This document shows, piece by piece, positions 1-6,544 of a DNA stretch of 6,626 nt. The position numbers and the translations under genes are program-made. Positions within the stretch are counted from its first letter, which is position 1. The number at the start of each line of letters is the position of its first letter. The stretch covers positions 1-6,626 of the forward strand of contig JALVLE010000428.1 in the NCBI GenBank assembly GCA_027033555.1. Reading direction: 5' to 3'. The stretch comes from Caldifarciminota bacterium. GTDB lineage: Bacteria; Hydrothermota; Hydrothermia; UBA1063; CAJXJZ01. The notes under the pieces are model-generated. The model had not been told where the DNA came from, did no database searches, and saw nothing but the letters and a program-made list of their open reading frames with translations.

Positions 1-91
1 TCTTTATATTAAGAGAACCGATTATTTTATCAATGATATTTTTATCCTTGAGAAAAACCTGACTGAGTTTTACGTTTTTTCTCCTGCTCAT
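1..91 (-). CDS. rsmA: Ribosomal RNA small subunit methyltransferase A (KsgA/RsmA), N-terminal fragment
   Basis: Only the first 30 codons are present; the gene runs off the left edge. The peptide starts MSRRKNVKLSQ and continues with VFLKDKNIIDKI. This matches the N-terminal signature of the RsmA/KsgA family (basic stretch, then K-x-x-G/S-Q-x-F-L-x-D-x-x-I-x-x-K-I), where the Gln and Phe-Leu lie at the S-adenosylmethionine pocket. Family members dimethylate two adjacent adenines in helix 45 of 16S rRNA late in 30S assembly. The ATG overlaps the stop of the M23 peptidase gene in an ATGA arrangement, which suggests translational coupling. A weak AAGG lies 10 nt upstream (105-102). The match is short, so the assignment depends on this one conserved block; the SAM-binding G-x-G motif would lie outside the window. 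Confidence 0.8.
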   Translation of the reverse strand, partial: MSRRKNVKLSQVFLKDKNIIDKIIGSLNIK

Positions 92-1602
92 CTGAGATAA
101 ACCTTATTTTTCCAGACTCTACGGTTGCCGGCTCTGTCCATTGCTAAAAATGAAACTTTATAAGCCCTGTGTTTTTTAAGATGGTGTCTCAGGACGGCAA
201 TTTTTCTTTCGTAGTCGTAATACACGGGATACCATCTGCCGCCTACGGTTAGCCTGAAAGAATCTGCATCCACACCGGAGAGTAAATCATCTACGTAAAA
301 GGCTATACTGTCAGAACCTCCCACATATTTTATGTAGGGAGGCACTGAATCGTGCATTGCTAAAAATACACCTAATTTGAGAGTTTTCCTGGTAAACTTT
401 TTTCTGCCCGTATGTTCAATTCTATAAATTTCTCTACCTGTATCATGAGTTCTTACATAGATATAACCTGTGAGCTGAGGGAGTTCTGGATAAACAAAAA
501 GTGTATCGCCTTTTTCTCTGTAAAAGAGTCCCCTAAGATAGGGTAAATAGGTGGTATTGACTTCAAGGGTAATCCTGCCATTGTTTATCGTTATGAGGGT
601 GTCGCCATCATACTTTATAAACTTATAGCCCAACTTTCTGGCCTTAGAACTCAACCGAATACCGTAATCAGAAAAACTGTATTTTACTCCGTCATAGGTT
701 GTGTCAAAAACAGGTCTTAGTTTTATGCCTTTTTTGAATCGGACCAAATAACACACAGTGTCACCGTAAAAGGAAATAAGTTTTACGGAAAGAGAATCAA
801 CACCTGTGTACTCACGGACACAATGTTTGACTGTGGAGGGGACCTCTTCGGTATAATTTGTCCTTATATACCCACTGAATCCATTACGCCTGGGTTTATA
901 CACAAATCCTGCCTCCCTTTGATTGAGGTAATTGAGAGTGTCAAGGGAAAAAACAAAATAGGTTGAATCTCCATCCTTTATTATAATCTTCCTGGTATGC
1001 TTTACGGCAAGAAACATCTTAAACCGTTTGAAATAAGGGAAAAGGAAAGTGTGTTTTTTGTGATAATCAATCCTGTAATTTCCTCCGGGTGTCTCAATTA
1101 ATACTGTCTGGAGCCTCGGAAGAAGATAAATGGTATCTGTAAGGGGAAATACTGGCAAAAGCCATCCTGCCCTTCTTTCAAAATGTAAATGGGGATACCC
1201 AACTCCGCTCTCCCCAGAATAACCTATGATTTGCCCTTTTTTCACGCTAAAATGCCCATCTTCAAAATATACGTCCTGCCTGTATTTATGGGTATATACC
1301 TGAAGCTTAAATACTGTATCCTCAAGAAGTTTTATAAACCTATCAAGATGGGCATATACATACAAGTTGCTGTCTGGAGCCATTATATATACAGCGTTCC
1401 CGTATCCGTAATATGATCTTTTTATTCTTACCACCTGGCCATCTGTCACGCTGTAAATGGGATACCCACATTTACCATGTGTTGAAAAATCAATACCCAT
1501 ATGGTAGCGTAATGGTCTTGCTTCTCCAAAATCACTTGTTATAATGATTTTCCCTGGCTGGATAGGTAAGATGCTCATTAAAAGGATAAAAAAGTGGGAC
1601 AT
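88..1602 (-). CDS. M23 family metallopeptidase with C-terminal beta-rich/Ig-like domains
   Basis: Predicted zinc endopeptidase of the LytM/lysostaphin family, 504 aa, likely acting on peptidoglycan cross-links outside the cytoplasm. The catalytic domain covers about residues 17-155 and all expected residues are visible: H34 and D38 in HMGID, H85 in YAHLD, H138 and H140 in PHLHFE. About 25 extra residues lie between YAHL and KKGQIIG; as I recall, this is typical of a Bacteroidetes-like M23 subgroup. Residues 160-415 are rich in short beta strands and aromatic residues, with no family I can name. Residues 420-504 look like an Ig-type sandwich ending in the common D-R-A-G-N motif. The N-terminus has a short hydrophobic run (FFILLMSILPI) without a positively charged n-region, so it is a weak signal peptide. 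The start lies 7 nt after the rho stop without a clear Shine-Dalgarno, and a stop 10 codons upstream leaves no other standard start. No anchor is seen at the C-terminus. Confidence 0.9.
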   Translation of the reverse strand: MSHFFILLMSILPIQPGKIIITSDFGEARPLRYHMGIDFSTHGKCGYPIYSVTDGQVVRIKRSYYGYGNAVYIMAPDSNLYVYAHLDRFIKLLEDTVFKLQVYTHKYRQDVYFEDGHFSVKKGQIIGYSGESGVGYPHLHFERRAGWLLPVFPLTDTIYLLPRLQTVLIETPGGNYRIDYHKKHTFLFPYFKRFKMFLAVKHTRKIIIKDGDSTYFVFSLDTLNYLNQREAGFVYKPRRNGFSGYIRTNYTEEVPSTVKHCVREYTGVDSLSVKLISFYGDTVCYLVRFKKGIKLRPVFDTTYDGVKYSFSDYGIRLSSKARKLGYKFIKYDGDTLITINNGRITLEVNTTYLPYLRGLFYREKGDTLFVYPELPQLTGYIYVRTHDTGREIYRIEHTGRKKFTRKTLKLGVFLAMHDSVPPYIKYVGGSDSIAFYVDDLLSGVDADSFRLTVGGRWYPVYYDYERKIAVLRHHLKKHRAYKVSFLAMDRAGNRRVWKNKVYLR

Positions 1603-1609
1603 AGGGTTA

Positions 1610-2908
1610 TCAGTCAGAAGAACTGTCCCTTAATTTTTTGGTAAGCATTTCAAGGAACTCCCTGTTATTCACAGAGAGTTTCATGTTTTGAAGTATGAAT
1701 TCCATTGCTGTTATGGGGTCCATTTCAGAAAGCGTCTTCCGAAGAATCCATACCTTGTTAAGAACATCTGGGGGGAGCAATAATTCTTCTCTTCTTGTAC
1801 CAGATTTGTTAAGATCAATTGCAGGGAATATTCTTCTATCTGCAAGCCGCCTATCCAGTACTATTTCACAGTTACCTGTACCTTTAAATTCTTCAAATAT
1901 AACTTCGTCCATCTTGGAACCTGTTTCTATAAGGGCAGTGGCAATTATTGTAAGAGACCCCCCTTCAACAAGGTTTCTGGCAGAACCGAAGAACTTTTTC
2001 GGTTTTACAAGCGCAGTGGAATCTATTCCACCTGTTAGCGTTCTCCCACTATGGGGTGTAATTGTATTATAAGCCCTTGCAAGTCTTGTAATTGAATCAA
2101 GCAGAATTACCACATCCCTGCCAAGTTCGGCAAGGCGCTTTGCACGTTCAAGTACTACCTCTGCAACCTCAGTATGCCTCTCCGCATACATGTCAAAAGT
2201 GGAACTAATCACGTCTGCGTCAATCTGTCTTTTGAAATCCGTAACCTCTTCTGGTCTTTCATCAATGAGAAGGACGATAAGCTCAACATCTGGATGATTT
2301 CGCCTTATGGCATTGGCAATATTTTGTAAAAGTACAGTTTTGCCTGCCCTCGGCGGGGATACAATGAGAGCTCTTTGCCCTTTTCCTATAGGGGCAAAAA
2401 GGTCCACTATACGGAGTGAGTAATCATCCCCCCTGACCATATCAAAATCAAACTTTTCGTTGGGATAATCGGGGGTAAGTTTTTCAAACACAGGCCTGTT
2501 ATTTTTTATCTCCTGCCAGGGTCTTCCGTTAACAAGTTCAGCCTTCACAAGCGCTGCATACTTTTCCCCCTCCTTTGGAGGCCGAGCAAACCCCTGCACA
2601 AGATCTCCCATCCTAAGGCCAAGCTTCTTTATCTGGGATTGAGAAACGTAAACGTCTTCCGGACTCGTCATATAGTTATATTCTTTTTTCCGCAAAAATC
2701 CATATCCATCATTCTTTATATCCAGCACTCCTTCTACATACTTGTACCCCTCTTTCTGCGCAAACGCCTCTACTATCTTTATAGCCAGTTCCCTTTTTCT
2801 TAAATTGGATGCATTGGGAATTTCAAGCTGTTTTGCAAGCTCATATAATTCCACAACTTTTTTGTTTAGAATCTCCTGAATATTTATTTCAATACTATTT
2901 GCGTTCAT
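1610..2908 (-). CDS. rho: Transcription termination factor Rho
   Basis: Hexameric RNA-dependent ATPase/helicase that ends transcription at Rho-dependent sites in the cytoplasm. With the chosen start it has 432 aa, close to the E. coli length of 419. Residues 15-50 are the helical Rho_N domain. Residues 58-127 are the cold-shock-type primary RNA-binding domain, with the YGFLR aromatic strand. The ATPase core follows: Walker A PPRAGKT (185-191), catalytic LIDERPEE (214-221), Walker B VVILLD (266-271) with SITRLARAYN, Q-loop region LTGGIDSTALVKPKKFFG, and R-loop region EEFKGTGN to FPAIDLNKSGTR. The usual STFDEP motif reads STFDMYAERH; the Asp is kept. GTG at 2911 is in frame, but ATG at 2908 sits 6 nt after GGGGGAG and is preferred. 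The gene begins 13 nt after the HD gene and has no leader of its own. Confidence 0.98.
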   Translation of the reverse strand: MNANSIEINIQEILNKKVVELYELAKQLEIPNASNLRKRELAIKIVEAFAQKEGYKYVEGVLDIKNDGYGFLRKKEYNYMTSPEDVYVSQSQIKKLGLRMGDLVQGFARPPKEGEKYAALVKAELVNGRPWQEIKNNRPVFEKLTPDYPNEKFDFDMVRGDDYSLRIVDLFAPIGKGQRALIVSPPRAGKTVLLQNIANAIRRNHPDVELIVLLIDERPEEVTDFKRQIDADVISSTFDMYAERHTEVAEVVLERAKRLAELGRDVVILLDSITRLARAYNTITPHSGRTLTGGIDSTALVKPKKFFGSARNLVEGGSLTIIATALIETGSKMDEVIFEEFKGTGNCEIVLDRRLADRRIFPAIDLNKSGTRREELLLPPDVLNKVWILRKTLSEMDPITAMEFILQNMKLSVNNREFLEMLTKKLRDSSSD

Positions 2909-2914
2909 CACCTT

Positions 2915-2921
2915 CTCCCCC
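2915..2921 (-). promoter_or_regulatory. Shine-Dalgarno deciding the rho start
   Basis: The run GGGGGAG begins at the base after the HD-domain gene stop. It lies 6 nt before the ATG at 2908 but only 3 nt before the in-frame GTG at 2911. The spacing favours the ATG and drops one residue from the longest reading frame. Confidence 0.65.
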
Positions 2922-3596
2922 TTACATCATTTTTGTATCGTTTATATAAAGTTCAAATCTTGCATCCAGAAAACTTGCAGATTTGGAAGCGATTAACATT
3001 CTCTGGAGAAATATTCTGAAATAATCCACAACAGGCGCAATCTGGGTATCCACCTCCAGCTTATATCTTACAATCCTGAGATTGGGGTCCACCTCAATAA
3101 AGGACCTGGTTGCAGAGTAATTTACTCTGTCATGAATATCTTTCTGAAGATTATCAAGATTCTTTGTACCCTTTCTTACCCTTGATCTGTGCACATCTGC
3201 CTTATCTGCAAGTATAAGAGCAGCAGATAAAATTGATACGGGATATCCGTCCTCCTCGTGATGATTCCCTATAGCCATCATTACATCTGCCACCTCATCA
3301 AGCTCAAAACCTTCCTCCTCCAGTATTTTACCTGCGAGTATAGCTCCCACCTGTGCATGATGGTCCCTATTTATTAAATTGCCTATGTCATGCAAAAAAC
3401 CCGCTATCTCACCAAGTTCCACAGTCCGTCTGTCATACCCCAATTCTCTTAAGACATAGGCAGTATTTTTTGACACCCAGGTGGCATGTCTTATTCCATG
3501 CTCTGTATAACCAAGACTCGCAAGCTGTTCATCCGCTTTTCTTATAAATAGTTCTATTTTTGGGTTTTTTCTCAGGTCTTTTAGTGTTTTCTGCAT
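2922..3596 (-). CDS. HD-domain metal-dependent phosphohydrolase
   Basis: Protein of 224 aa from the HD superfamily, whose members use one or two metal ions to cleave phosphate esters; the substrate cannot be read from the sequence. Likely metal ligands are visible in order: H33 and H37 in TEHGIRHA, H69-D70 in FLHDIGN, H79-H80 in RDHHAQ, H112-H113 in GNHHEEDG, and D131/D134 in LADKADVHRSRVR. The extra HH pairs suggest a two-metal site. Residues 162-222 form a separate mixed alpha/beta tail ending in FELYIND; from memory, similar tails occur on HD proteins of Firmicutes and Thermotogae. No GGDEF, response-regulator or membrane segment is present, so it is soluble. It has a near-perfect ribosome-binding site, follows the GGGPS gene by 9 nt and precedes rho by 13 nt. 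A role in prenyl-phosphate or nucleotide turnover is possible but only inferred from position. Confidence 0.88.
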   Translation of the reverse strand: MQKTLKDLRKNPKIELFIRKADEQLASLGYTEHGIRHATWVSKNTAYVLRELGYDRRTVELGEIAGFLHDIGNLINRDHHAQVGAILAGKILEEEGFELDEVADVMMAIGNHHEEDGYPVSILSAALILADKADVHRSRVRKGTKNLDNLQKDIHDRVNYSATRSFIEVDPNLRIVRYKLEVDTQIAPVVDYFRIFLQRMLIASKSASFLDARFELYINDTKMM

Positions 3597-3601
3597 ACCT
3601 A

Positions 3602-3607
3602 CCTCCT
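3602..3607 (-). promoter_or_regulatory. Strong Shine-Dalgarno of the HD-domain gene
   Basis: A perfect AGGAGG sits 5 nt before the ATG at 3596 and overlaps the TAG stop of the preceding GGGPS gene. It is the strongest ribosome-binding site in the window and suggests that the HD protein is translated efficiently from the shared transcript. Confidence 0.8.
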
Positions 3608-4316
3608 ATACAAATAGTTTATTTTTTTCTACTGCGGTACCTACAACTATGTGCTTCGCACCACTTTTTATGGCCTTTTCTATATCCCGGAGAGATACGA
3701 AACCTCCCCCAGCTATTACTGGAATGCTAAGAAACTCTGTAGTCCTTTTAATGGCATCAAACGGCACATGATAAATGGCACCAGAGCCGGCCTCAAGATA
3801 AATAAGTTTAAACCCAAATAATTCTGCGGCTTTTGCATGATAGGCCACAAGTTCTGCTTTGTCCCGTGGAATAGGCTTTGTATTGCTCATAAATTCCACA
3901 GAGGTTATTTTTCCTCCGTCAATGAGGATATATCCTGTGGAAATTGCTTCTATGCCAGTTTCCACTATAAAAGGTACCATTCTAAGTTGCTCCCCTATTA
4001 GTAAATGGGGATTTCTACCAGAAATAAGAGACATGTAAAGCACAGCATCCGCATACCGTGAAAGCTGGGAATGGGAAGAGGGAAACATAATAACAGGCCT
4101 GTCAGTATTTTCTTTTATCCTTTTTACATATTCGTCAAGATTGAAGGCTATCTGAAAACTGGAACCTATAAAATATGCCTTTACCATATTGTTGTTATTT
4201 AATTTGTCTATTTTTCTGAGTGTCTCTTCTATACTGGATCTATCAGGGTCAAAAAGGATTATAACCCCACTTTCTTCTTTTTTAAATAATCTGTCGTAAA
4301 GTTTCTCCTGCCGCAT
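3606..4316 (-). CDS. Geranylgeranylglyceryl phosphate synthase (GGGPS/PcrB family, group II-like)
   Basis: TIM-barrel prenyltransferase of 236 aa. The family joins sn-glycerol-1-phosphate to a polyprenyl diphosphate, forming the first ether bond of archaeal-type lipids. Visible family blocks are FDPDR (residues 22-26, Mg/diphosphate region, usually L-x-DPD-K/R), PVIMFPSS (74-81), SLISGRNPHLLIGEQ (96-110), TGYILIDGG (127-135), SNTKPIP (144-150), the phosphate-binding YLEAGSGA (173-180), AGGGF (202-206) and VVGTAVEKN (224-232). SLISGRNP and the overall length point to group II, known from archaea and from FCB bacteria. Bacillus PcrB is the main alternative and uses longer prenyl donors, so chain length is uncertain. 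An in-frame GTG at 4331 would add five residues, but ATG at 4316 has the better ribosome-binding site. The gene overlaps the reductase gene by 35 nt. Confidence 0.93.
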   Translation of the reverse strand: MRQEKLYDRLFKKEESGVIILFDPDRSSIEETLRKIDKLNNNNMVKAYFIGSSFQIAFNLDEYVKRIKENTDRPVIMFPSSHSQLSRYADAVLYMSLISGRNPHLLIGEQLRMVPFIVETGIEAISTGYILIDGGKITSVEFMSNTKPIPRDKAELVAYHAKAAELFGFKLIYLEAGSGAIYHVPFDAIKRTTEFLSIPVIAGGGFVSLRDIEKAIKSGAKHIVVGTAVEKNKLFV

Positions 4317-5502
4317 AGATTCCCTTTGCACCGAACCTAAAAAGAAACAGAGGATCTTTTTTCAGGACTTTTATCAGCATGGAGACAGGGTTAAGAGGGG
4401 GGTGTATTTCCATGGTGCCCAATGCTTCTTTTACACTTTCCACAAAGCTTCTGAGTTCCTCTGACGAGAGGGAAGTGTAAAACTCCCTGGCAAAAAGTGT
4501 TATAATATAATCATGCATAATCCATTCTTTGAGCTTCTTCTCATAAACCTTTAGCAAGTTTTCCCCAAAATTCCTCTTTTTGATGGCAAATGCCGCCACC
4601 TCTGCCCCCACAAGACCGGAAATGTATGCATTGGCAATTCCGCCCCCTGTAAGTGGATCTGCAAGCCGAGCTGCATCCCCAAGTATTAATACATTATCCG
4701 CATATAATTTTCTTTTGTGAAAAACAGTGGGAACAACTCCATGAGTTACACCTAATATTTTAACGCCTTTACAATGTTTTTCCAAAAAGTTGTTGAGGTA
4801 TGTATGGAGCCCATCTCTTTTACCAGGTATTCCTACACCAATGTTGGCAAAACCTCCCCCTTTGGGGAAAATCCAGGCGTAGCCATGCGGGGCAACGCTC
4901 TCTCCAATGCCAAAATAAAGGTAATCGTCCCTTATACCGTCACAATATCCGTAAATCTGATAAGTGTAAAAATCTGTATTTTTGTCATAGTCTTTAAAAA
5001 TACCAAGTGACTTTGCTATAACAGCAGCAGGCCCGGAAGCATCTATTATAAGGGAAGTATTGAAAACCCTCTCCTGGTTTCCATTTTTTAAAGTTACCTC
5101 CACCTTCTTTCCCTTCCTGTTGGCGTTTATAAACTTTGTATTGACAAGAATATCAGCCCCCTCCTTTACTGCCCTCTCAACAAGATACCTGTCAAAAATC
5201 TTTCTTTCAAGTATAGCACCACCGGGCTTTTTTAATTTTACTTCAACATATGGTTTTCCTTCGTAGGTAAGCACTCCTCCATGAATATAAGCTGCAACAT
5301 AATTTCTTTTGTGAGCAAGCTCTTTCTCCACAAGATTCAAGAACTCCATTGAAACGCCCTCTGCACATAAAATAGTGTGTGCCACTTCTCTTTGCTTTTC
5401 AACAAGAAGAACAGAAAGTCCTTTCCGGACAGCATAATACGCAAAAGAACTCCCTGCCGGGCCTGCTCCTATCACAATTGCATCGTAAGTTGTTTTATCC
5501 AT
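4282..5502 (-). CDS. Geranylgeranyl reductase family FAD-dependent oxidoreductase (digeranylgeranylglycerophospholipid reductase-like)
   Basis: Flavoprotein of 406 aa. The family saturates the double bonds of geranylgeranyl chains; archaeal members act on ether-linked membrane lipids, others on geranylgeranyl diphosphate, chlorophyll or quinone side chains. The N-terminus is the FAD-binding Rossmann fold, VIGAGPAG (10-17) followed by VLLVEK (31-36). C46 in ILCAEGV matches the conserved cysteine of the family. DASGP (154-158) and ILGDAARLADPLTGGGI (273-289) are the later FAD motifs. GYAWIFP (207-213) followed by GVG at 222-224 fits the YxWxFPx(7-8)GxG substrate motif of archaeal reductases. 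Residues 310-406 form a helical C-terminal region. The ATG starts directly at the Rossmann strand but has no clear Shine-Dalgarno. A sigma70-like promoter lies just upstream. Adjacency to GGGPS supports an ether-lipid substrate; quinone-chain reduction is the main alternative. Confidence 0.92.
   Translation of the reverse strand: MDKTTYDAIVIGAGPAGSSFAYYAVRKGLSVLLVEKQREVAHTILCAEGVSMEFLNLVEKELAHKRNYVAAYIHGGVLTYEGKPYVEVKLKKPGGAILERKIFDRYLVERAVKEGADILVNTKFINANRKGKKVEVTLKNGNQERVFNTSLIIDASGPAAVIAKSLGIFKDYDKNTDFYTYQIYGYCDGIRDDYLYFGIGESVAPHGYAWIFPKGGGFANIGVGIPGKRDGLHTYLNNFLEKHCKGVKILGVTHGVVPTVFHKRKLYADNVLILGDAARLADPLTGGGIANAYISGLVGAEVAAFAIKKRNFGENLLKVYEKKLKEWIMHDYIITLFAREFYTSLSSEELRSFVESVKEALGTMEIHPPLNPVSMLIKVLKKDPLFLFRFGAKGIYAAGETLRQII
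4321..4327 (-). promoter_or_regulatory. Shine-Dalgarno deciding the GGGPS start
   Basis: AAAGGGA, with its AGGG core 5 nt before the ATG at 4316, lies inside the reductase coding sequence. The more upstream in-frame GTG at 4331 has no purine-rich block at a suitable distance, so the ATG is the likelier start. Confidence 0.65.
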
Positions 5503-5552: not shown

Positions 5553-5564
5553 GTGCAAAGTCAA
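5536..5564 (-). promoter_or_regulatory. Sigma70-type promoter for the reductase-GGGPS operon
   Basis: TTGACT (5564-5559) and TATCAT (5541-5536) are separated by exactly 17 nt, each matching the consensus at five of six bases. Transcription would start near 5529, leaving a leader of about 27 nt before the ATG at 5502. The -35 box includes the TGA stop of rluD, so the promoter uses the only real intergenic gap in the window. The genes downstream to rsmA have gaps of at most 13 nt and may all depend on it or on read-through from rluD. Confidence 0.65.
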
Positions 5565-6544
5565 CCAGTGTGCAACTCAAGATACTCTTCAAGCTTTTTC
5601 ATATCTTCTGGCAGGTCTATCTCAAATGTAATCTTTCTTCCCATACCAGGATGGAAAAACGTGAGTTTCGCTGCATGCAAAGCCTGTCTGTCCATTATGT
5701 TTAAAATATCGGATACGTACTTTTTCATTGAAGGGGGCACTACCTGAAGAATTCTCCTTGGCTCTCTACCCGAATAGGTCTCATCTCCTATAACAGGATA
5801 TCCCATGTACTCCATATGTACCCTTATCTGATGAGTACGTCCTGTATGGAGCTCTAATTCCAGCTTTGTTGCCAGTTTTCCATACCTTTTTAGCACCTTA
5901 AAATGAGTTATGGCACTTCGGGAATGGAATGGAGTAACGGCCATGCGGGTTCTATCTACTGGATGCCTTCCAACAGGGGCATCCACAGTGCCAGAATCAA
6001 GAGGTACACTCCCCCACACAAAGGCTATGTACGTCCTTTTTGCTGTCTTCTCTTCCATCTGCCTTCCGAGACTGTAAAGGGCTCTCTCTGATTTTGCGAC
6101 GACTAAAAGGCCGGTTGTATCCTTATCCAGTCTGTGAACGATGCCGGGACGCTGCTTTTGCTCATTTGTGGGAAGTTTTTTGTATTTTGCAAGTAAAAAG
6201 TTCACAAGAGTACCTGTTGCATTCCCCTTTGCAGGATGTACAACAAGTCCTTTGGGCTTGTTGATCACAAGAACATCTTCATCCTCATATACCACATCAA
6301 CCGGCAGATCCTCAGCAATCAATTTTATCGGCTCATATACTTCAAATTCAGCATATATATGGTCTCCCTCCTTTACCCTGTAGCCTGGCTTGGATTTTTT
6401 GTTATTAACAAGAACTTTGCCCTCTTTTATAAGCTTTTCCGTACGGGAACGAGAAAGACCTATCCCACCTTTTAACAAATACATATCAAGACGGGTATTC
6501 TCCATCTTTTTGGAGACCACCCGTTCAAATATTTTCTTCACCAT
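5561..6544 (-). CDS. rluD: RluA/RluD-family 23S rRNA pseudouridine synthase
   Basis: Converts selected uridines in rRNA to pseudouridine; RluD itself modifies 1911, 1915 and 1917 in helix 69 of 23S rRNA. The protein has 327 aa, normal for the family. Residues 16-66 are an S4 RNA-binding domain (RLDMYL, LSRSRTEKLIKEGKVLVNN). The catalytic domain starts near residue 85; the active-site block GIVHRLDKDTTGLLV carries the nucleophile D140. Motif III appears as LHTGRTHQIRVHMEYMGYPVIGD (232-254), and a C-terminal HAAKLTFFHP closes the fold. RluD is preferred over RluA or RluC because of the S4 domain, length and motif spelling, but exact site specificity is uncertain. The ATG at 6544 overlaps the preceding reading frame by 20 nt. 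AGAGG abuts the ATG with no spacing, so the adjacent GTG (6541) is a possible alternative; a TGA lies just upstream in frame. Confidence 0.95.
   Translation of the reverse strand: MVKKIFERVVSKKMENTRLDMYLLKGGIGLSRSRTEKLIKEGKVLVNNKKSKPGYRVKEGDHIYAEFEVYEPIKLIAEDLPVDVVYEDEDVLVINKPKGLVVHPAKGNATGTLVNFLLAKYKKLPTNEQKQRPGIVHRLDKDTTGLLVVAKSERALYSLGRQMEEKTAKRTYIAFVWGSVPLDSGTVDAPVGRHPVDRTRMAVTPFHSRSAITHFKVLKRYGKLATKLELELHTGRTHQIRVHMEYMGYPVIGDETYSGREPRRILQVVPPSMKKYVSDILNIMDRQALHAAKLTFFHPGMGRKITFEIDLPEDMKKLEEYLELHTG

Follow-up and report, generated by a model that had tools for sequence, protein, structure and literature searches.

A geranylgeranyl reductase-GGGPS gene pair in WOR-3 bacteria and its predicted place in an archaeal-type ether-lipid gene set

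Archaeal and bacterial membranes differ in the chirality of the glycerol backbone and in the chains attached to it. What, then, is the function of two adjacent genes of archaeal-type ether-lipid synthesis, encoding a GGGPS and a geranylgeranyl reductase (GGR), in a bacterial gene cluster? The question was raised by an earlier reading of sequence alone (the sequence-only reading), which described an overlapping pair with intact family motifs among genes that mark a bacterium. The DNA concerned, here called the window, is a stretch of 6,626 nucleotides that makes up positions 1 to 6,626 of contig JALVLE010000428.1 in assembly GCA_027033555.1, from a Caldifarciminota bacterium. Its genes are as follows, in window positions.

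88..1602, minus strand: M23 peptidase, downstream context gene (Peptidase_M23, 56.3 bits)
1610..2911, minus strand: transcription terminator Rho, bacterial context gene (TIGR00767, 622.4 bits, above cut-off)
2922..3596, minus strand: HD-domain protein between GGGPS and rho (HD, 31.4 bits)
3606..4331, minus strand: GGGPS, group II, 241 amino acids from a GTG at 4331 or 236 from an ATG at 4316 (structure match 4jej, aligned catalytic residues)
4282..5502, minus strand: GGR flavoprotein of the geranylgeranyl reductase family, 406 amino acids (GG-red-SF profile, structure match 3oz2, motifs, tree)
5561..6544, minus strand: RluD-type pseudouridine synthase, upstream context gene (TIGR00005, 297.9 bits)

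The coordinates, open frames, Pfam matches and motif alignment all agree with the description of the pair. Both frames are open, and they overlap by 50 bp with the GTG start of the GGGPS gene or by 35 bp with the ATG; the database copy of the GGGPS has 236 residues and fits the ATG. The bacterial neighbors named by that reading are borne out as well, RluD, Rho and M23 by profile matches and the fourth as a gene start at the left edge of the window, which we provisionally take to be RsmA from a motif. A gene start matching this left-edge gene also lies downstream of M23 in two public records. The HD protein, which is tied to GGGPS and rho, is 88-95% identical within the genus, compared with 69-86% for GGGPS.

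The genome that contains the window comprises 1.96 Mb in 433 contigs and is 92.4% complete, with an estimated contamination of 7.49%. It was compared within a set of 31 genomes, which includes three others of the same genus (95-98% complete, 1-2% contamination) that carry the same gene set. Three public records, two titled candidate division WOR-3 and one uncultured bacterium, encode RluD, HD and Rho proteins that are 80-95% identical to those of the window and arranged as they are there; by such close relatives the genome is assigned to WOR-3. Protein identity to the same-genus genomes is 62-81% for the contig with the G1PDH-type gene and 59-78% for that with the DGGGPS-like gene, both discussed below. 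Contamination, including a misbinned archaeal contig, is ruled out by the gene order in the public records together with these same-genus matches.

The synthase could in principle have been a PcrB, a doubt that the sequence-only reading had itself raised. It scores above the cut-off of the Pfam PcrB profile (120.6 bits) and passes the NCBIfam subfamily model TIGR01768 (129.5 against a cut-off of 113.25), and it falls just under two narrower models (TIGR01769, GGGP, 155.9 against 161.55; NF003198, 232.8 against 247). The best solved structure is 4jej, a bacterial GGGPS that is presumably the F. johnsoniae enzyme (169.1 bits, E 9.2e-49), whereas the PcrB structures 3vzx and 1viz give E values of 0.11 (15.3 bits) and 0.12, and the PcrB model NF003197 gives 20.2 bits against a cut-off of 260, which places the protein outside PcrB. 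Tyr134, Tyr178 and Glu180, for glycerol-1-phosphate (G1P), and Asp28, for Mg, align with the solved enzymes; these roles of two Tyr and one Glu in binding G1P and of an Asp in binding Mg are described in passages of PMC9385802. In the VGTAVE stretch of the alignment, a Thr stands in place of the group-I Asn216. Furthermore, the comparison with the nearest same-genus gene gives a dN of 0.082 and a dS of 1.13, which places the gene under purifying selection. By its alignments, the window gene at 3606-4331 encodes a group-II GGGPS that is far from PcrB.

The second member of the pair scores above the cut-off of Pfam GGR_cat (63.9 bits) and passes TIGR02032, GG-red-SF (209.7 against 158.8); it misses the two DGGGPL-reductase equivalog models (NF041160, 193.6 against 780; NF041080, 136.9 against 580), and the MenJ profile gives 62.4 bits. 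Its best solved structure is the DGGGPL reductase 3oz2 (182.4 bits, E 1e-52), and the motifs GxGxxG, RxxFD and PxxYxWxFP are present, with LxGD reading ILGD. Outside WOR-3, its closest relatives that bear an organism name are DGGGPL reductases of archaea. In a tree with several long branches and a weakly supported root (61/78), for which the outgroup was bacteriochlorophyll-type reductases and a halogenase, a single group (support 89/96, not both above 95/80) holds the proteins of 16 WOR-3 genomes together with two proteins named as WOR-3/Hydrothermia, and this group adjoins the archaeal DGGGPL reductases. Six weaker GGR-like matches kept in the tree fell outside the WOR-3 group. The sequence-only reading is upheld by this placement beside the archaeal enzymes and apart from the bacteriochlorophyll-type ones, in a tree drawn without a menaquinone reductase. 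The WOR-3 GGR is predicted to saturate isoprenoid chains.

An ether-lipid pathway needs more than this pair, and that reading had pointed to the rest of the genome for a source of G1P, a second prenyltransferase, CarS and a polyprenyl synthase. A single G1PDH-type gene is present, on contig C415 and outside the lipid operons. Its product scores 260.5 bits with NF002022, under the cut-off of 413, versus 66.5 with a glycerol dehydrogenase model; the best structure, at 168.4 bits, is 3ce9, titled glycerol dehydrogenase, and G1PDHs come next with 141.1 and 134.7 bits. In the G1PDH tree the WOR-3 proteins lie with those of Streptomyces, Nitratidesulfovibrio and Cytobacillus and with 3ce9 (98/98), apart from the archaeal proteins and from the Priestia AraM, and the tree does not recover them as a single group among the bacterial branches. 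The expected source of G1P thus stands as far as the presence of a G1PDH-type gene goes, and is weakened by a score under the model cut-off and by the grouping with bacterial enzymes whose role is uncertain. A search with PF13685 gave matches in 23 of the 31 genomes; eight of these, which a search with the G1PDH protein at 1e-10 failed to hit, have weak partial-profile matches and were provisionally read as iron alcohol dehydrogenases of another kind. One record titled Micrarchaeota has a G1PDH gene next to GGGPS on the same strand (L013:5129-6651).

The second prenyltransferase was found elsewhere in the genome, as anticipated. Three UbiA proteins are encoded there, and one of them, on contig C247, is DGGGPS-like: its best structure is the DGGGP synthase 6m31 (E 7.2e-36, the next match being 6.4e-4), both Asp-rich motifs are present, and in a UbiA tree it joins 6m31 (98/96) apart from three other UbiA proteins of this genome and a same-genus genome. 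It passes no NCBIfam model cut-off. In none of the four genomes of the genus do the GGGPS and DGGGPS-like genes share a contig. In the window's genome and one other of the genus, an SPFH/Band-7 gene lies upstream of the DGGGPS-like gene and shares 4 bp with it (L044:3044-3994 and 2214-3047). Across 23 loci the adjoining gene is an SPFH gene in 10 and a YfcE-type phosphodiesterase gene in 13, and none of the papers searched names both DGGGPS and SPFH. The window's genome also encodes a 753-residue protein that has a central UbiA domain and, towards the C-terminus, a TPR motif (L046:1257-3518, contig C329), and UbiA-matching open frames of 719-721 amino acids occur in the other three genomes of the genus (G001 C18, G002 C3 and G003 C29).

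CarS is the part of the expected set that was not found in the genome or its genus, a profile search giving no match in the four genomes. Over all 31 genomes weak matches occurred in five, one of them above the cut-off; four of the five lay inside CdsA genes, and none was from this genus. CdsA itself is present in the window's genome, together with GpsA, PlsY and PlsC of the bacterial route, and the substitution of CdsA for CarS is cited in a passage of PMC7852524. These four genes rule out a bacterium without ester lipids. According to part of PMC13400652, PlsY and PlsC accept both G1P and G3P, so that a supply of G1P could also alter the ester lipids.

The polyprenyl synthase sought by the sequence-only reading exists in this genome and, from its sequence, appears to form FPP. 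A search with PF00348 found a single trans-prenyl synthase per genome across the four of this genus. At position -5 of the first Asp-rich motif this sole synthase carries a Phe, and it has an insert of two residues; both features are common to all eight main synthases compared. It passes an FPP-synthase model (306.8, cut-off 275) and fails the CrtE GGPP model (294.9, cut-off 460), and no GGPP synthase was found in the genus. As described in a passage of PMC9385802, small residues at this position are those of type-II GGPP synthases, whereas with large ones the product goes no further than FPP. Because only an FPP-type synthase was found, the supply of C20 is uncertain: the donor chains may be C15, or the synthase may make both C15 and C20. 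Several WOR-3 families have an additional trans-prenyl synthase, missing from this genus, in which the residues ahead of the first Asp-rich motif are small, like those of enzymes that make longer chains (L127-L132 and L134).

How far do these genes travel together? GGGPS occurs in 23 of the 31 genomes, in one as a match of 36 positions and in another as two pieces. A DGGGPS-like UbiA is likewise found in 23, being present in 22 of the 23 genomes with GGGPS and missing from seven of the eight without it. GGR occurs in 21 (E 1e-20), 18 of which have GGGPS, and G1PDH in 15, that is, in 15/23 GGGPS-bearing genomes versus 0/8 of the others (Fisher p 0.0024, uncorrected for relatedness). All four genes are together in 13/31. 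Of the 18 genomes that have both GGR and GGGPS, 14 have the two side by side, always with rho nearby, and the four exceptions belong to one family, f9. Flank counts, which cover 20 of the 24 GGGPS matches, place rho around GGGPS in 16 loci and HD beside it in 12; the four loci without rho are those of f9. Another family of the same order, f2, has GGGPS and GGR in 5/5 genomes and G1PDH in 0/5. Eight further GGGPS loci, seven from other or unplaced bacteria and one titled Micrarchaeota, had no GGR match beside GGGPS within 3-13 kb, and plasmid searches with GGGPS and UbiA gave no match. The genes, their family assignments and the conserved order around GGGPS are thus observed, as is the joint presence of the set in all four genomes of the genus. 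Judged by gene content, order and selection, the pair belongs to a conserved, selected archaeal-type ether-lipid gene set in WOR-3.

The main claim of the sequence-only reading, an archaeal-type ether-lipid pair in a bacterium, therefore holds up well, supported by the G1PDH-type gene, the DGGGPS-type UbiA, the polyprenyl synthase, the GGGPS scores and the GGR tree. We propose, with moderate confidence, that the pair is the committed part of a pathway to saturated isoprenoid glycerol ethers that runs alongside the synthesis of ester lipids. The G1PDH-type enzyme would reduce DHAP to G1P, GGGPS would join the first prenyl chain to it, and the DGGGPS-type UbiA would attach the second. GGR would saturate the chains, and CdsA, replacing the missing CarS, would activate the product for the bacterial head-group enzymes, while GpsA, PlsY and PlsC would provide that cell with ordinary G3P ester lipids. 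We infer every one of these enzymatic steps, as well as the stereochemistry and the chain length, which would be C20, or C15 should there be no donor source other than the FPP-type synthase. Production of diethers by the cell is likely on this gene content.

The link from the G1PDH to the pathway can be questioned, since this protein groups with bacterial enzymes, some of them encoded beside cytidylyltransferases, and its G1P may therefore serve another product. A nucleotidyltransferase like the cytidylyltransferase part of IPCT-DIPPS adjoins G1PDH in 5/15 genomes (L041:4507-5217; also L097, L098, L100, L102 and L103), two of them of this genus, the Streptomyces relative is flanked on one side by a gene of the phosphocholine-cytidylyltransferase family and on the other by one for a CDP-alcohol phosphatidyltransferase, and in f9 (4/15 G1PDH genomes) the gene upstream is glycosyltransferase-like, as named by eye. 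The G1PDH might then feed the synthesis of a surface polymer, or of some other compound, by way of cytidylylated glycerol, with GGGPS using G3P, or G1P from elsewhere, as proposed for Cloacimonetes; ether lipids would still exist. We regard this as unlikely, given that no such nucleotidyltransferase adjoins the G1PDH of the window's genome or of one other in the genus, and that all 15 genomes with G1PDH have GGGPS and none of the eight without GGGPS has G1PDH.

Two further possibilities concern the product of the pair itself. Single-chain isoprenyl glycerol ethers are known in Bacillales (in a passage of PMC9179154), and here the second prenyltransferase is DGGGPS-like and under model cut-offs; the pathway might thus end at a single-chain or dephosphorylated isoprenyl glycerol, comparable to the heptaprenylglyceryl phosphate of Bacillus, and yield no membrane bilayer lipid. 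The group-II character of the GGGPS, with its 15 bits to PcrB, the near-constant company of a DGGGPS-type UbiA and the adjoining chain reductase argue against such an end point, which we consider quite improbable. Finally, the GGR could saturate another isoprenoid, menaquinone or a polyprenol, and sit beside GGGPS incidentally. The family is broad, archaeal paralogues being thought to act on several terpenoids (according to part of PMC10821996), the equivalog cut-offs are missed, and in the four f9 genomes GGR is apart from GGGPS. Against this, the genes adjoin in 14/18 genomes, the nearest named relatives outside WOR-3 are archaeal DGGGPL reductases and the MenJ score is only 62.4 bits, all of which makes an incidental placement very unlikely.

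If the ether-lipid pathway does operate, a more speculative extension suggests itself, which we offer tentatively and as possible rather than probable: a natural heterochiral membrane, in which sn-G1P isoprenoid diethers, made with the cell's own G1PDH and possibly C15, would coexist with sn-G3P fatty-acid esters, and in which an SPFH scaffold, encoded with the second ether step, would gather the ethers into domains. With a G1PDH-type gene, GGGPS, DGGGPS, GGR and an ester pathway, the question of both lipids in one natural cell can be asked in a single organism. The WOR-3 isolate sy37, which stands near Ca. Hydrothermae, has been cultured, and the main text of the paper that describes it (PMC12285271) uses neither the term lipid nor fatty acid, so that WOR-3 membrane composition can be measured. 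The passages of PMC12542636 on 181 WOR-3 genomes contain no isoprenoid, ether or geranyl terms.

Individually, the enzymes resemble known ones. The window's GGGPS shares the fold family and aligned catalytic residues of the 4jej-type group-II bacterial GGGPS (169 bits), and differs in the conserved GGR-GGGPS-(HD)-rho order of its genes. The GGR resembles the archaeal DGGGPL reductases (3oz2 and the Methanosarcina and Archaeoglobus relatives) in its 182 bits, FAD and substrate motifs and adjoining clade, but it fails the equivalog models, and the WOR-3 reductases group by themselves (89/96). The AraM-PcrB heptaprenylglyceryl pathway of Bacillus is also a G1P-based prenyl ether route in a bacterium; its PcrB, however, is of another group (15 bits), and it has neither a second chain nor a GGR pairing.

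The closest system is that of Candidatus Cloacimonetes and further bacteria of the FCB group; for Cloacimonetes, passages of Villanueva et al. (PMC7852524) report GGGPS, DGGGPS and GGR in four MAGs, with a full bacterial fatty-acid ester pathway, CdsA available, and CarS and G1PDH not found. As in the WOR-3 genus, CarS is thus missing and CdsA at hand. The same passages report that the Cloacimonetes GGGPS and DGGGPS make archaeal phospholipid in E. coli, and leave chirality open because the four MAGs lack G1PDH. They also limit GGGPS-DGGGPS co-localization to Cloacimonetes, where GGGPS adjoins DGGGPS, whereas in the WOR-3 genus it adjoins GGR; and they describe two polyprenyl synthases, whereas one, FPP-type, was found in the WOR-3 genus. 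In the relevant part of their survey, Coleman et al. (PMC6431249) report that two of 12 FCB phyla, Fibrobacteres and Cloacimonetes, have G1PDH, and that single genomes of Firmicutes, Actinobacteria and Fibrobacteres carry G1PDH, GGGPS and DGGGPS, three core genes whose predicted counterparts also occur together in the WOR-3 genus; WOR-3 was surveyed, and that part of the text does not list it with the phyla that combine the three. Archaeal lipid genes in bacteria are therefore already known. What is new here is a genus whose predicted G1PDH, missing from the four Cloacimonetes MAGs, would fill that gap and make a natural mixed membrane testable.
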